Shown: positions 50,086 to 56,298, counted from the first letter of the stretch. The stretch: 64,000 nt of DNA from Polyangiaceae bacterium (GCA_025937835.1 JAICQO010000009.1:1-64000), one strand, 5' to 3'. Made by a program: numbers and translations. The notes: generated by a model from the letters alone, not told the origin.

Positions 50086-51189
50086 TCAACCGCGCTTGCG
50101 TTCGCGCTTGTGGGCAAAGCTGTGCGCGGCGAGCTCGAGCCCGACCCGATCGAGGCCGGCGAGGGACCTCGCCGTTTCGCCGTCGAGACCGGCTCGCGCC
50201 GCCCAGAGCTCGGGAGACTGGAGGAAGCCGCGGCGCGTGGGCTCGTCGGTGTACAGCCGAACCAAAAAGCGCTCGAGCGCCTGAGCCGCGTCGCTCCGGG
50301 CATGCGGCTCGCAGTACTGAATGGCGGCGGCAGGCTCGGTGACCGCCCGGCGACGGCCTTCCGCGAGCACCGCTCGAGCCCGCTCGATTTCCACGAGCAG
50401 CTCGCCGAAAGCCGGGTACGAGCCGTCTCGCTCGAGGATCACGCTCAGCGGTCGTGGCGCACGCGCCCCGAGCTCGGTGAGCAGCGAGTAGACGGCTTCG
50501 GGCACCGCGTGCAAATGGTCGTCGAGCAAGCGCTGGTTTCCGGCCGGCCCGATCCATTTGCCACCTGCGAGGTGGACGGCCCGAACACGCTCGAGCGGCA
50601 AAGCGCAGAGCTGCTCGAGCGGGTCCCTCCCGAAGTTCACGGCGTTGGAGTAGAGGTTGTTGAGATCGAGCAGCAGCGGGGCGTCGCTTTGCACCAGCAC
50701 GCGCGCGATCCACTCGCTCTCGTCGAGCTCGCTGCCCGGCGGTTCGAGCAGCGTCGCGATGTTTTCGAGCAGCGGCGTCGCACCGACGATGCGCCGCGCA
50801 CGCGCCACGTTCTCTGCCGCGCCACAGACGGTGGCCACGCTGCGCGGAGGCGCGGCCAAATGCCCGATCTCCACGCCGTCGCCGCGAACGAACGCCAGGT
50901 GCTCCGACCAGAGCTCGGGCTCGATCGAATGCACCACGCGAGCCAACGACTCGAGACGCCGGGCATCGACCGGCAGCGACGAGGCCAGGCCGAGCGAAAC
51001 CCCATGCAACACGACCGGCACCTGCGCCGAGAGCGTCTTCATCGCCCGCAGCTCACGCGCGGGAGCCCGGAACAGATCGTCGGCGATCACCTCGACCAGC
51101 TCGATCCGGTCGAGGTTCGAGAGAATGCCCCCGGCGAGCTCGCGCCTCCAGCCGATGCCGACGCGATCCTTCCCCGTCAACTCCCGCAC
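50086..51189 (-). CDS. DUF692/MNIO-type iron oxygenase
   Basis: 367 residues from a GTG at 51189. Conserved residues of the multinuclear non-heme iron oxygenase fold are all visible: E33 in IELVEVIADD, H62 in VVLHGVSLGL, H97 in LWSEHLAF, E142 in LLENIATL, D175/N177/N178 in LLLDLNNLYSNAVNFG, H206 in VHLAGG, D224/H225/H227 in LLDDHLHAVP and E253 in ILERDGSY. In the family these ligate two or three irons; known members (MbnB, TglH, bufferin enzymes) modify Cys in peptides. It overlaps the Cys tail of the TIGR04222 gene by 13 bp. C-terminal ~100 residues are an extension of unknown role. Confidence 0.9.
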   Translation of the reverse strand: MRELTGKDRVGIGWRRELAGGILSNLDRIELVEVIADDLFRAPARELRAMKTLSAQVPVVLHGVSLGLASSLPVDARRLESLARVVHSIEPELWSEHLAFVRGDGVEIGHLAAPPRSVATVCGAAENVARARRIVGATPLLENIATLLEPPGSELDESEWIARVLVQSDAPLLLDLNNLYSNAVNFGRDPLEQLCALPLERVRAVHLAGGKWIGPAGNQRLLDDHLHAVPEAVYSLLTELGARAPRPLSVILERDGSYPAFGELLVEIERARAVLAEGRRRAVTEPAAAIQYCEPHARSDAAQALERFLVRLYTDEPTRRGFLQSPELWAARAGLDGETARSLAGLDRVGLELAAHSFAHKRERKRG

Positions 51190-52076
51190 CCCCCGCAGCC
51201 GCCACCACCGCCGCAAGACGACCCGCACGACGACGAGCCGCACGAAGAAACGCCGCACGCATGCGTCGAAGACGACCACGAGCTGCCCGGGCTGCCGCTA
51301 TCCGGCAGCGGCCCCGGGAAAAGCGCCGTGAAGCGCTCGCGGAGCGGGCCCTCTAGCGCGACGGCGCCGTAGATTCCCAATAGTAACGTGAGCTCGTTGG
51401 TGGCTCCGCCAGGAGCGATGTTGGCGGACCGCTCGCGGAGTCCGGAGAACAAGGCTTGAAAGTCCTGAACCACGCGGCGCCCCAGCGTGGTGCGGCGTCG
51501 CCACAGCAAGCAGCCGGCCGCGACGGGCACAACCAAGCTCAGCGCGACCAAAAAACCGACGTTGTGGTGACCTCGAGCGAACGCCAGCGACACCTTCGTG
51601 AACGACACCCACCATAAAAACGCGCAAGCGCCGAGACCGAGCAACAGCCGGACCCCCTGCTGCCCCGGGGACGGCAGCAGCCGCTGCTCGCGGAGCTGGG
51701 CTTCGATGGCGGTGCAGGCACGCCGGCATTCGTAGCTACGGAGCGCGCTCGAGGCGGGGCTCGGAGCCTCGAAGTGCTGGACGATGTTTTGCTCTATCGG
51801 GCGGCGCGTGTACGAGGCCGCGCCGGGCACCGCGTGCAGCGTGTCCCCGTTCGCCACCAACAAGCCGCGATCGTGGAGGGCCAACGTGGCGATCCGGATC
51901 ACCTCGTCCGTGTCGGCGCGCAGCCGCGCGAACCAGTACGGATCCGGCTGCCAGATCTGCGGAACCGGCCCCGATTCGAGGAAATAGCGGGCGAGCCCCA
52001 CGCCGCCCAGCACGAAGCTGGACAGCACGGCGTAGAAGACCAGAAACTCGGGGCCGCGCAGGTCGAACGGGTTCAT
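51177..52076 (-). CDS. TIGR04222 membrane protein with six-Cys C-terminal tail
   Basis: 299 residues. N terminus MNPFDLRGPEFLVFYAVLSS and LRADTDEVIRIATLALHDRG match the TIGR04222 family. Three membrane helices (about 10-30, 145-165, 172-192) precede a soluble segment. The last 36 residues are almost all Ser, Gly and Cys with Cys at 274, 279, 284, 288, 294 and 297 (HACGVSSCGSSSCGSSCGG...). This looks like a RiPP-type core region fused to a membrane anchor. It is the middle gene of a three-gene operon (6-bp gap upstream, overlap downstream) with a DUF692 enzyme. Function unproven. Confidence 0.87.
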   Translation of the reverse strand: MNPFDLRGPEFLVFYAVLSSFVLGGVGLARYFLESGPVPQIWQPDPYWFARLRADTDEVIRIATLALHDRGLLVANGDTLHAVPGAASYTRRPIEQNIVQHFEAPSPASSALRSYECRRACTAIEAQLREQRLLPSPGQQGVRLLLGLGACAFLWWVSFTKVSLAFARGHHNVGFLVALSLVVPVAAGCLLWRRRTTLGRRVVQDFQALFSGLRERSANIAPGGATNELTLLLGIYGAVALEGPLRERFTALFPGPLPDSGSPGSSWSSSTHACGVSSCGSSSCGSSCGGGGGCGGCGS

Positions 52077-52082
52077 CGCCGA

Positions 52083-52820
52083 CTAGTGCAGAGCCGTTGC
52101 CTGGCGGTGCATTTCCGTGGCCAGCTCGAGCAGGTCGAGCAGCGCTCGCGGGGCGGCACCCGCCGGCAACGCGCGCGTCTCGCGGGCGAGGGAGAGCCGC
52201 TCCAACGTCTCTCGATAACGATCACCCGGCAGCTGTGCCGCGACTTGCTCGAGCGAGAGCTTCGGCGACGGCGCAGGTTGGCCCTTGAGCTCGAGCAGAG
52301 CCTCCGCGCAGGCGCGGAGCGGCCCGGCGGTGTCCGCTACCAGGGCTGCGGCCTGTTCGTCGCGCAAGCTGCGCAGCAAATACCTCTGCCGGAGCCGGAG
52401 GATCAGGTTCAAGAGAACCTGCCGCAACCGTGCGAGCTCGGCGGCGCGCGACGGACGGATCTCCGCGAACGGATCCGGACCGTGGAGCACGCGGCGGCGA
52501 TGCAGGATGTCCGCGAACTTCACCGCGAACGCTTCGACGGCTGCCGGAACCTCGCTCGAAAGCAGGAACATGGCCTCGAGCCGGATCGCCGCGTAAGCCG
52601 TGCGCAGCGGATCTCTCAATCGATCGGCGCGGTCGGGCGAAAACTCCTCGAGCACGAGGATCAGGTTCACGTCCGAGGTCTTTCGCAGCTTTCCCTCGGC
52701 AGCGCTGCCGTAGAGCACGACGGAGACCAGCTCCGAGCCGAAAACCTGGCGAGCCTCTGCGACGAACCCCGACAGGACCCGCTGCACGGAATCGGGCAGT
52801 AGCGCGCTCTCTTCAGACAC
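52083..52820 (-). CDS. Minimal nucleotidyltransferase (MNT-like) with altered SDxD motif
   Basis: 245 residues. The signature is VVLYGSAAEGKLRKTSDVNL: GSxxxG is present, but the usual second metal-binding Asp of SDxD is Asn (SDVN). Downstream are helical parts (FADILHRRRVLHG, LRQRYLLRSLRDEQ) without a HEPN motif. Such proteins transfer nucleotides to small molecules, tRNA or partner proteins. Coupled to the TIGR04222/DUF692 pair (6-bp gap). The altered metal ligand may reduce activity or bind without catalysis; a sensor or regulatory use is possible. Confidence 0.78.
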   Translation of the reverse strand: MSEESALLPDSVQRVLSGFVAEARQVFGSELVSVVLYGSAAEGKLRKTSDVNLILVLEEFSPDRADRLRDPLRTAYAAIRLEAMFLLSSEVPAAVEAFAVKFADILHRRRVLHGPDPFAEIRPSRAAELARLRQVLLNLILRLRQRYLLRSLRDEQAAALVADTAGPLRACAEALLELKGQPAPSPKLSLEQVAAQLPGDRYRETLERLSLARETRALPAGAAPRALLDLLELATEMHRQATALH

Positions 52821-53003: not shown

Positions 53004-54503
53004 ATGGACGCTTCACTCGTGGATCCCTTGCTTCGCCCGCGTCAGCTCTGGGTCTTGTTGGCCGGGGCGGCTGCCCTGCCCGGCTGCCCGCCCACCGACG
53101 ACTATTTTCTGAGCCAAACCCAGCCAACCAGCACCGCCGGTGCGTCTGCGGGCAACGCCGGCCAGCCACCCATGGGCGATCCGCACCCGGAGTGCGGTAA
53201 TGGAGTCGCCGAGGGGGCCGAGGGCTGCGACGGCGCCGATCTGCGAGGCGCGAGCTGTGAGTCCTTGGGTCAAGGCACTGGGCAACTCACTTGCGTGAAC
53301 TGCAAGCTGGACAACGCCGGGTGCGAAGTCAGGTTGCCCTTCTGCGGCGACGGAATCGTCGATCCCGAAAAGGAGGGCTGCGACGGCGCGGATCTGCGCC
53401 AGGCGACTTGCGAGCTCCTCGGCTACGAGGGGGGAACGCTGGTCTGTACTGCCACGTGCCACCTCGACACGGACGGTTGCACGAGCGCGACACCCGTCGC
53501 GGTGTGCGGCAACGGTTCCGTGGAAGCAGACGAGCTCTGCGACGGGCTCAACTTGCGCAGCCAGACCTGCCAGAGCCTCTTGGGTCAGGCGTCCGGGACG
53601 CTGCGCTGCACGACCCTGTGTGCGTTGGACGCGTCGGATTGCACCTTGCACCGGGCAATGTGCGGCAACGGTATCCCCGAGGGCGCCGAGAGCTGCGACG
53701 GCGCCGACCTCAAAGGCTACACCTGCGAAACCGTCGGATTCGGGCCCGGCAAGCTCTCCTGCACGGGCTGCGCGTTCGACACGACCGGCTGCGGCACGGC
53801 GGTAAGCGGCTGTGACGGGCTGGGCGGCTCGGGCGGTACCGGCTCTGCCTGCTGCGTGCCCGCTGCCGAGATCTGCGACGGGCGCAGCAACGACTGCGAC
53901 GCGGAGGTGGACGAAGGCGGCGTGTGTCCGGACGGCTGCACCGCCCAGCTTTACGAGGACCGTCTCTACCTGCTGTGCATCCACCCCGACGCCACGGCCC
54001 AACGTGACTACGCCGACGCCTCCGCCGATTGCGCGGCCGCGACTACGACGCTCGGGCTCCCGATCGCCCTCGAGCTCGCGCACATCGAGTCCGCACCCGA
54101 AAATGCGTTCGTGAAGGGCTGGATCCGGGAGCGCATTGCGGAGGCCGGCGTGACCGAGGGCATGGTCTGGAACGGCGCCAACGACATCGCGCGCGAAACG
54201 CGCTGGGTCTGGGGCCAGGGGCTGAACGCCGTGCACTTCTTCCAGGGCACGTTGTTCGGCGGCGGCGATCCGGTGGCCGGGCGCTTCCATGATTTTGCCT
54301 CGGGCCGCCCCAACAGCGCGAACGCCACCGACGAGGACTGTGGGGGGTTCGACTCGGAAGCAGACTGGCGCTGGAATGACCGGCTCTGCACGCGACGCGC
54401 GCTCGGCTTCGTGTGCGAGCAGTCCGACGGCAACTCCGGCATGCCCCCCCCCACGGCCCCGCCGCCCCCACCGGGTCCGATGGGTCCGAGGCCGTGGCCG
54501 TAG
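53004..54503 (+). CDS. Lipoprotein with four Cys-rich repeats and a C-type lectin domain
   Basis: 499 residues. Signal with lipobox ALPGC. Four repeats of about 45 residues each begin CGNG/CGDG and contain EGCDGADL...C...G.L.C...C..D..GC, a disulfide-rich module typical of myxobacterial surface proteins. The C-terminal domain shows LYLLCIHPDATAQRDYADAS and AHIESAPENAFVKGWI, EGMVWNGANDIARETRWVWG, DCGGFDSEADWRWNDRLCTR, that is the C-type lectin fold with its WND motif and Cys pairs. Ends in a Pro-rich tail. Likely surface sugar binding. Confidence 0.87.
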   Translation: MDASLVDPLLRPRQLWVLLAGAAALPGCPPTDDYFLSQTQPTSTAGASAGNAGQPPMGDPHPECGNGVAEGAEGCDGADLRGASCESLGQGTGQLTCVNCKLDNAGCEVRLPFCGDGIVDPEKEGCDGADLRQATCELLGYEGGTLVCTATCHLDTDGCTSATPVAVCGNGSVEADELCDGLNLRSQTCQSLLGQASGTLRCTTLCALDASDCTLHRAMCGNGIPEGAESCDGADLKGYTCETVGFGPGKLSCTGCAFDTTGCGTAVSGCDGLGGSGGTGSACCVPAAEICDGRSNDCDAEVDEGGVCPDGCTAQLYEDRLYLLCIHPDATAQRDYADASADCAAATTTLGLPIALELAHIESAPENAFVKGWIRERIAEAGVTEGMVWNGANDIARETRWVWGQGLNAVHFFQGTLFGGGDPVAGRFHDFASGRPNSANATDEDCGGFDSEADWRWNDRLCTRRALGFVCEQSDGNSGMPPPTAPPPPPGPMGPRPWP

Positions 54504-55719: not shown

Positions 55720-56298
55720 TCAGACGGCCGAGAGGTGTTCCACCAAGATCTTGAGTCCGAGCCCGATCAACACGATCCCACCGAAAGCATCGAGTCGTTG
55801 CCCTAGGGCGGAGCCGAAGCGACGTCCGGCTAGCACACCGAGCGCGCTCAGCCCGGCCGTCGTCACGCCGATCGTCAGGAGCGAGCTCACGAACGGCGCA
55901 TTCAGCATCGGCAAGGTGAAGCCCACCGCGAGCGCGTCGATGCTGGTCGCGAGCGCGAGCACGAGCAAGAGCTGGATGCGGAACGATTCATCGACGGAGA
56001 GCGCGGGCTTCGCTCCGGCGTCGTGCTCCAAGCGCGCCTCCCACAGCATCTTCCCGCCAATGGCGCTGAGCAACGTGAACGCGATCCAGTGATCCCAGGC
56101 CTGAATCAGCGGCCCGATTCGAGCACCCACGAGCCAGCCAATCCAGGGCATCAGCGCTTGAAAGCCGCCGAACAAGAGGCTTACCGAGAGCACGTGCCGG
56201 AGCCGCAGCGTCCGCGCCGCCATGCCCCGCGCCGCGGCTACGGCCGTCGCATCCATGGCGAGGCCCACGGACAGGAGCAAGATCGCGCCGAAGGTCAA
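55720..56298 (-). CDS. mntP: MntP-family manganese efflux pump
   Basis: 192 residues with six hydrophobic helices in two homologous halves. Family motifs: LLLSVGLAMDATAVAAARGM and ATSIDALAVGFTLPML, where the Asp residues in each half (AMDA and SIDA) are the metal ligands. MntP exports Mn2+. Start is a TTG (56298) which gives the usual N terminus; no ATG is available at that position. No yybP-ykoY riboswitch is evident upstream, although that element commonly controls mntP. Divergent from the 56.45-kb operon. Confidence 0.9.
   Translation of the reverse strand: MTFGAILLLSVGLAMDATAVAAARGMAARTLRLRHVLSVSLLFGGFQALMPWIGWLVGARIGPLIQAWDHWIAFTLLSAIGGKMLWEARLEHDAGAKPALSVDESFRIQLLLVLALATSIDALAVGFTLPMLNAPFVSSLLTIGVTTAGLSALGVLAGRRFGSALGQRLDAFGGIVLIGLGLKILVEHLSAV

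Follow-up and report, generated by a model that had tools for sequence, protein, structure and literature searches.

MNIO (DUF692) enzymes form a rapidly expanding class of enzymes that modify peptides. Among the described systems, the closest to the locus considered here are clusters in which an MNIO gene adjoins a gene for a TIGR04222 membrane protein. That linkage, the Cys tail of the membrane protein as a candidate substrate, and the PME-type 2 partners have been published (Antoine et al. 2025, PMC12452194). According to the same survey, TIGR04222 proteins, for which no function is known, make up 40% of the candidate MNIO substrates that lack signal peptides, and C-proximal Cys residues are absent from over a quarter of them. 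The initial annotation of the window (the whole stretch of 64,000 nucleotides that was analyzed) had likewise placed an MNIO gene beside a TIGR04222 gene and taken the Cys tail as candidate substrate, a proposal that our analysis supports and that was already in print. Our locus shares with the published clusters a membrane protein with a Ser/Gly/Cys C-terminal tail, the proposed extracytoplasmic substrate, next to an MNIO. It differs in its origin, since the published TIGR04222 proteins are mostly actinomycete, and in the partner: a PME-type 2 protein is found in at least 10% of the published clusters, whereas here a small domain is fused to the MNIO.

Other known systems resemble single components. 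Bufferin clusters (BufB/HvfB MNIO plus DUF2063) employ an enzyme of the same MNIO superfamily, but their small Sec-type precursor and DUF2063 are missing from the window operon. The Os1348/LigA-like domains of the NHLP clan (NF038399, PF07746) match stand-alone acidobacterial homologues of the MNIO C terminus, just under the cut-off; in the window the domain is fused to the MNIO and is not a leader peptide. AadA and the ANT(3'')(9) enzymes share with the nucleotidyltransferase-like protein of the operon (hereafter NT) the full-length fold of an NT domain and a helical domain, over 222 residues, but the window NT is only about 18% identical to them, scores far below their cut-offs, reads D-x-N in place of D-x-D, and is conserved beside a membrane protein. 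The Hailong (HalA/HalB) and MntA/HepT systems pair a nucleotidyltransferase with a membrane partner (HalA) or a HEPN partner (HepT). The window NT is similar to these in fold, but it scores far below the HalB and MntA cut-offs and its partner is TIGR04222.

The main text of the survey (PMC12452194) contains no mention of nucleotidyltransferase, adenylyl or transferase. The open-licence literature yielded no paper joining MNIO with nucleotidyltransferase and RiPP, or MNIO with Sorangium, which is weak evidence; the single paper there that holds both DUF692 and nucleotidyltransferase treats them separately. What is known is MNIO with TIGR04222; what we have not found described is the conserved AadA-fold partner, its intact and decayed clades, and the fused MNIO partner domain.

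Layout of the operon

As the initial annotation had it, the operon encodes, in this order, an NT, a TIGR04222 protein with a Cys tail, and a DUF692 enzyme; all three genes lie on the minus strand (Table 1). All three open reading frames are present and each scores above the cut-off of its family: 22.2 bits for the NT against NTP_transf_2 (PF01909; cut-off 21), 78.6 bits (E 5e-22) for the middle gene against TIGR04222 (curated cut-off 43), and 221.7 bits (E 1.3e-65) for the DUF692 gene against PF05114 (gathering cut-off 25). A gap of 6 nt separates the NT stop codon from the TIGR04222 ATG. The direct overlap reported between the TIGR04222 and DUF692 genes is real, although the start given for the latter is not. 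Position 51279 is merely the mechanical start of the open reading frame; it is wrong as the MNIO start because the DNA of the Cys tail would then be read in another frame. Since MNIO homology begins at RVGIGWR, the start is either the GTG at 51189, which gives a 13-nt overlap, or the TTG at 51180, which gives a TTGA overlap.

Two other genes of the window lie nearby. A putative manganese efflux pump, MntP (55720-56298), is found about 3 kb upstream of the operon, with no sign of belonging to it, and the opposite strand encodes at 53004-54503 a Cys-repeat protein (CGNGVxEGxExCDGADL repeats) with a lectin-like C terminus.

Table 1. Coordinates of the operon features, counted from the first nucleotide of the window
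Feature	Position	Strand	Description and basis
AadA-fold nucleotidyltransferase-like protein (NT)	52083..52820	-	245 aa, GTG start; PF01909, AF2 model, homologues adjoining TIGR04222
Degenerate NT catalytic motif G38-S39...D50-V51-N52	52665..52709	-	Motif table over NT family; profile alignment to ANT(3'')(9) in PDB
TIGR04222 membrane protein	51177..52076	-	299 aa, four candidate TM segments; TIGR04222 score, TM/charge profile of 56 homologues
Ser/Gly/Cys tail, C-terminal 36 residues, six Cys, candidate MNIO substrate	51180..51287	-	Cys tails common to relatives
MNIO (DUF692) enzyme	50086..51189	-	367 aa from GTG 51189 (alternative TTG 51180); PF05114, AF2 model
Os1348/LigA-like partner domain fused at MNIO C terminus	50089..50301	-	Homologous stand-alone acidobacterial ORFs
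TIGR04222 stop / MNIO start overlap, 13 nt	51177..51189	-	Corrected MNIO start

The MNIO enzyme and its candidate substrate

The AF2 model of the MNIO has a TIM-barrel fold, matching TglH (8hi7_B) with Z 28.9 and an rmsd of 2.6 over 271 residues and MbnB with Z about 27. Eleven of its residues (H63, E97, H98, H111, E143, D176, N179, H207, D224, H226 and E254, in A3 numbering) are invariant in 26 relatives; these His, Glu, Asp and Asn positions fall within the part alignable to MbnB and TglH and are predicted ligands. The full set of iron ligands predicted by the initial annotation is thus supported indirectly, by invariance and alignment. Compared with the equivalogs for bufferin maturases, the protein scores under both cut-offs (MNIO_BufB, its best NCBIfam match, 184.5 of 310 bits; HvfB, 148.1 of 360), and neither a DUF2063 protein among the scanned flanking genes nor a small Cys precursor before the MNIO was found in this operon. 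Two more MNIO loci of the same genome (L002 and L003, on contigs C147 and C172) are bufferin-cluster-like in that they have small precursors with a Cys motif and, as recognized by eye, a DUF2063-like gene. In the closest relative of the window (L038:6417-8531), no stop ends the MNIO frame, which extends into a lipoprotein-like alpha/beta hydrolase.

While its identity as an MNIO stands, the DUF692 protein had been described as an enzyme alone, and a fused partner domain at its C terminus was overlooked. The last 65-70 residues are extra to the MbnB/TglH-like fold, and a homologous segment forms a stand-alone open reading frame directly after the MNIO in Acidobacteriota (L142-L146, L148 and L149; HMM domain E 1e-10 to 1e-25). 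The two of these that were scanned reach 36.2 and 37.5 bits against the Os1348 model NF038399 (cut-off 40; E 2e-9 to 5e-9) and also match the LigA model (PF07746), just under its cut-off; the window MNIO itself reaches 16.9 bits against NF038399. Because these scores fall under the NF038399 cut-off, we call the domain Os1348/LigA-like and not a member. In the comparison with PME-type 2 proteins, which have the DUF2063-like domain of NGO1945/TglI, the domain is modeled at low confidence and gives no DUF2063 match. Enzymes from loci in which the MNIO gene comes first (MNIO-first, below) carry a different fused C-terminal block, with a conserved KR, and this block matches a 61-aa protein encoded directly after the MNIO in a Tsukamurella TIGR04222 locus (E 7e-9). 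Judged by these matches, both C-terminal types are fused versions of small MNIO neighbors, and very likely of the kind that Antoine et al. call partner proteins. We do not claim a common origin for the two types (hhalign probability 18.6%).

The tail of the TIGR04222 protein comprises its last 36 residues, GSSWSSSTHACGVSSCGSSSCGSSCGGGGGCGGCGS. It contains the six Cys previously noted, and 31 of the 36 residues are Ser, Gly or Cys; in the long reading frames of the 64-kb window, only 3 of 71,512 stretches of 36 residues are as rich in these three amino acids. Nearly all MNIO-adjacent TIGR04222 proteins have Cys tails. Those of the MNIO-first clade (e.g., L055, L065, L068 and L150) show a strikingly regular C-x5 pattern, such as SSCSSSSCGGGGGCGGGGGCGGGGGCGG, that is conserved between families and in one Vicinamibacteria genome (L150). 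At L040:7069-9070, TIGR04222 genes lie in tandem, the second of which encodes a protein with a single Cys near its end and an Asp-rich finish.

A profile over 56 TIGR04222 homologues reveals four hydrophobic segments, around which Lys plus Arg average about 0.2 before TM1, 2.6 after TM1, 2.9 before TM2, 3.2 after TM3, 2.5 before TM4 and 0.7 after TM4; the TM2-TM3 loop is short and somewhat positive too. By the positive-inside rule this pattern suggests that the N terminus and the tail lie outside the cytoplasm and the large domain inside, while the side of the window tail is uncertain because hydrophobicity is weak in TM4 of the window protein. Our charge profile differs here from the account of Antoine et al. 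(PMC12452194), in which the large TIGR04222 domains are periplasmic. If the tail is outside and the MNIO cytosolic, modification would need to precede passage of the tail through the membrane.

A nucleotidyltransferase-like partner

The AlphaFold2 model of the NT (26 sequences, pLDDT 94) matches solved AadA over 222 residues (Z 15.8, rmsd 3.2, 18-19% identity) and AAD(9) nearly as well (Z 15.4), with further matches to ANT(4''), HalB (Z 10.8), MNT antitoxin in the N-terminal half and HEPN in the C-terminal half. In sequence, the profile alignment to ANT(3'')(9) is limited to the motif region, and the scores against these NCBIfam models are under cut-off: 26.2 of 340 bits for ANT_9, with ANT(3'') also weak; 19.6 of 60 for MntA antitoxin; and 14.3 of 190 for HalB (18.1 for an intact relative). 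The window NT retains GS and E82, but the canonical D-x-D is here D50-V51-N52, the second metal-binding Asp being replaced by Asn. Since the mechanism of the superfamily is metal dependent, this substitution is predicted to abolish activity, and the window NT is probably a pseudo-nucleotidyltransferase, although D-x-N may keep some activity. The nucleotidyltransferase family given by the initial annotation holds, but in this operon the protein is probably not an active enzyme. Two close relatives (the NTs of L038 and L050) also lack the residue corresponding to E82.

To place this gene in a wider context, TIGR04222 was searched in 318 genomes of the window's class, and the window proteins supplied the profiles with which 40 neighborhoods were scanned; the counts omit two TIGR04222 matches with neither tail nor partners (L043 and L061) and one locus that matched no profile (L072). 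The NT adjoins 31 of the 37 credible TIGR04222 loci. All three genes are found at 27 (including L046, where TIGR04222 is divergent), four have the NT with no MNIO nearby (two of them at contig edges), five have the MNIO and no NT, and one is cut by the contig end. Two main gene orders occur, MNIO-NT-TIGR04222 in the majority (MNIO-first) and NT-TIGR04222-MNIO as in the window (NT-first). The NCBI cut-off is missed by several of the MNIO-first TIGR04222 proteins, which may explain why this group went unnoticed. Among Acidobacteriota the NT is present at 4 of 11 TIGR04222 loci; at three actinomycete plasmid loci, found by MNIO query, it is absent, and a tblastn search of TIGR04222 against plasmids gave no match. 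A scan keyed on the NT alone, built from 11 intact-clade sequences and hence biased toward that clade, returned 29 loci, nearly all from Myxococcota and most with TIGR04222 and MNIO adjacent; Sorangium cellulosum, Minicystis rosea and Paraliomyxa miuraensis are among them and carry the intact version. A Verrucomicrobia match (L102) is a sensor kinase and was rejected as false. Linkage in two phyla and two gene orders argues that the NT is a linked, accessory third component, and the earlier view of it as an undescribed partner holds up well; the refuting condition that the initial annotation had set, a neighborhood that related genomes do not share, is not borne out.

Gene order and catalytic residues go together in these loci. 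The full set of G-S, D-x-D and third acid is found in 22 of 24 MNIO-first loci versus none of nine NT-first loci, a contrast (Fisher p 1.4e-6) that is a description and not a test, as the rows are related and not phylogenetically independent. Maximum-likelihood trees of the NT and of TIGR04222 display the same deep split, MNIO-first on one side and NT-first plus TIGR04222-MNIO loci on the other, the TIGR04222 tree being a quick version and the placement of some long-branched NTs unsure; several loci of the second TIGR04222 clade have no NT.

A few loci bear on which component the NT accompanies. The NTs of L108, L109 and L121 lie beside a TIGR04222-like protein that ends near the expected start of the tail, and an MNIO is absent from their vicinity (67.8 bits against TIGR04222 for L108, 39.3 for L109, under the cut-off of 43, and a match for L121 only with the profile built here). 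Because the NT is kept there without tail or MNIO, its partner is probably the membrane protein. L050 has an NT and a TIGR04222 protein with a Cys tail, and no MNIO was found in its genome (G253), whose completeness is rated at 98%. Co-occurrence in these few loci suggests that the NT works with the TIGR04222 membrane core and the MNIO with the tail, so that the NT probably tracks the core rather than the tail or the MNIO. NT paralogues also occur without TIGR04222 or MNIO (L089, L090, L098, L099 and L113-L117). In Labilithrix-type genomes such a paralogue is flanked by a MoxR-like AAA gene and by Lon, and its motif is often GG...SDVN instead of GS...D-x-D.

A proposed mechanism and its alternatives

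We lean toward the explanation that the operon specifies a membrane-tethered, MNIO-modified tail together with a TIGR04222-specific NT partner, here a pseudoenzyme. The cytosolic MNIO, with its fused domain as partner, would oxidize tail Cys residues, either ahead of membrane insertion or in its course. Through the last TM segment the tail would then be exposed outside the cytoplasm and would bind a metal there, probably copper. The NT would partner the cytoplasmic core of TIGR04222 and not the tail. In the MNIO-NT-TIGR04222 clade it would probably transfer a nucleotide, for example by adenylylating TIGR04222 or a related target; in the clade of the window, where catalytic residues are lost, it may act as a binding, assembly or regulatory subunit. 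More tentatively, and with considerable doubt, we speculate that the NT is a dedicated partner of the core, that one clade has it as an active regulator able to transfer nucleotides and the other as a catalytically dead subunit, and that nucleotide transfer or binding would control the modified, metal-binding tail. Against the overall explanation stand the genome without an MNIO (G253), the weak TM4, the large periplasmic domains described by Antoine et al., the activity that D-x-N may keep, the relatedness of the rows in the triad count, the NT paralogues away from TIGR04222 and the five class loci without an NT.

Alternatively, every version of the NT, that of the window included, could be catalytically active and adenylylate Ser, Thr or Tyr in the tail or in TIGR04222, a second post-translational modification. 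The Ser-rich tails, the AadA-like fold over the full length of the NT and the GS/D-x-D/E set, complete in 22 of 24 MNIO-first loci, would suit such an enzyme. We consider this unlikely: the window has D-x-N, no NT-first locus of nine has the full triad, the third acid is missing from the closely related NTs of L038 and L050 too, and occurrence of the NT with tail-less TIGR04222 speaks against the tail as its target. Those tail-less pairs, the pairing of the NT with a membrane protein, its structural resemblance to HalB (Z 10.8) and its weak matches to CBASS cyclase and candidate-defense NT models are what might be expected of a Hailong-like signaling pair, in which a nucleotide signal made by the NT would gate the membrane protein, with the MNIO-modified tail added as a sensor or effector. 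HalB model scores of 14-18 against a cut-off of 190, the lack of a PADLOC match for TIGR04222 and the loss of catalytic residues from NT-first members make such a pair improbable in our estimation.

It is also rather improbable that the MNIO acts on another, unannotated peptide while the Cys tail of TIGR04222, left unmodified, binds metal or forms disulfides. Tail and NT do occur without an MNIO in G253, and over a quarter of published TIGR04222 proteins have no C-proximal Cys (PMC12452194), but in the loci examined here MNIO presence tracks the Cys tail, and no other Cys-rich open reading frame was noticed in the operon. Chance presence in the operon of an NT gene unrelated to it, of resistance or housekeeping type, seems very improbable; NT paralogues elsewhere and weak ANT(9)/ANT(3'') scores might be cited for it, but it is disfavored by a linkage kept in two phyla and two gene orders, with matching deep clades. 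On the low family scores and the conserved linkage, an aminoglycoside-resistance gene was likewise rejected.

The system is open to testing, as the intact version is present in the cultured myxobacteria S. cellulosum, M. rosea and P. miuraensis. A conserved NT partner that one clade has kept intact and the other has let decay offers a direct handle on the role of TIGR04222 and on the question of MNIO action on entire membrane proteins.
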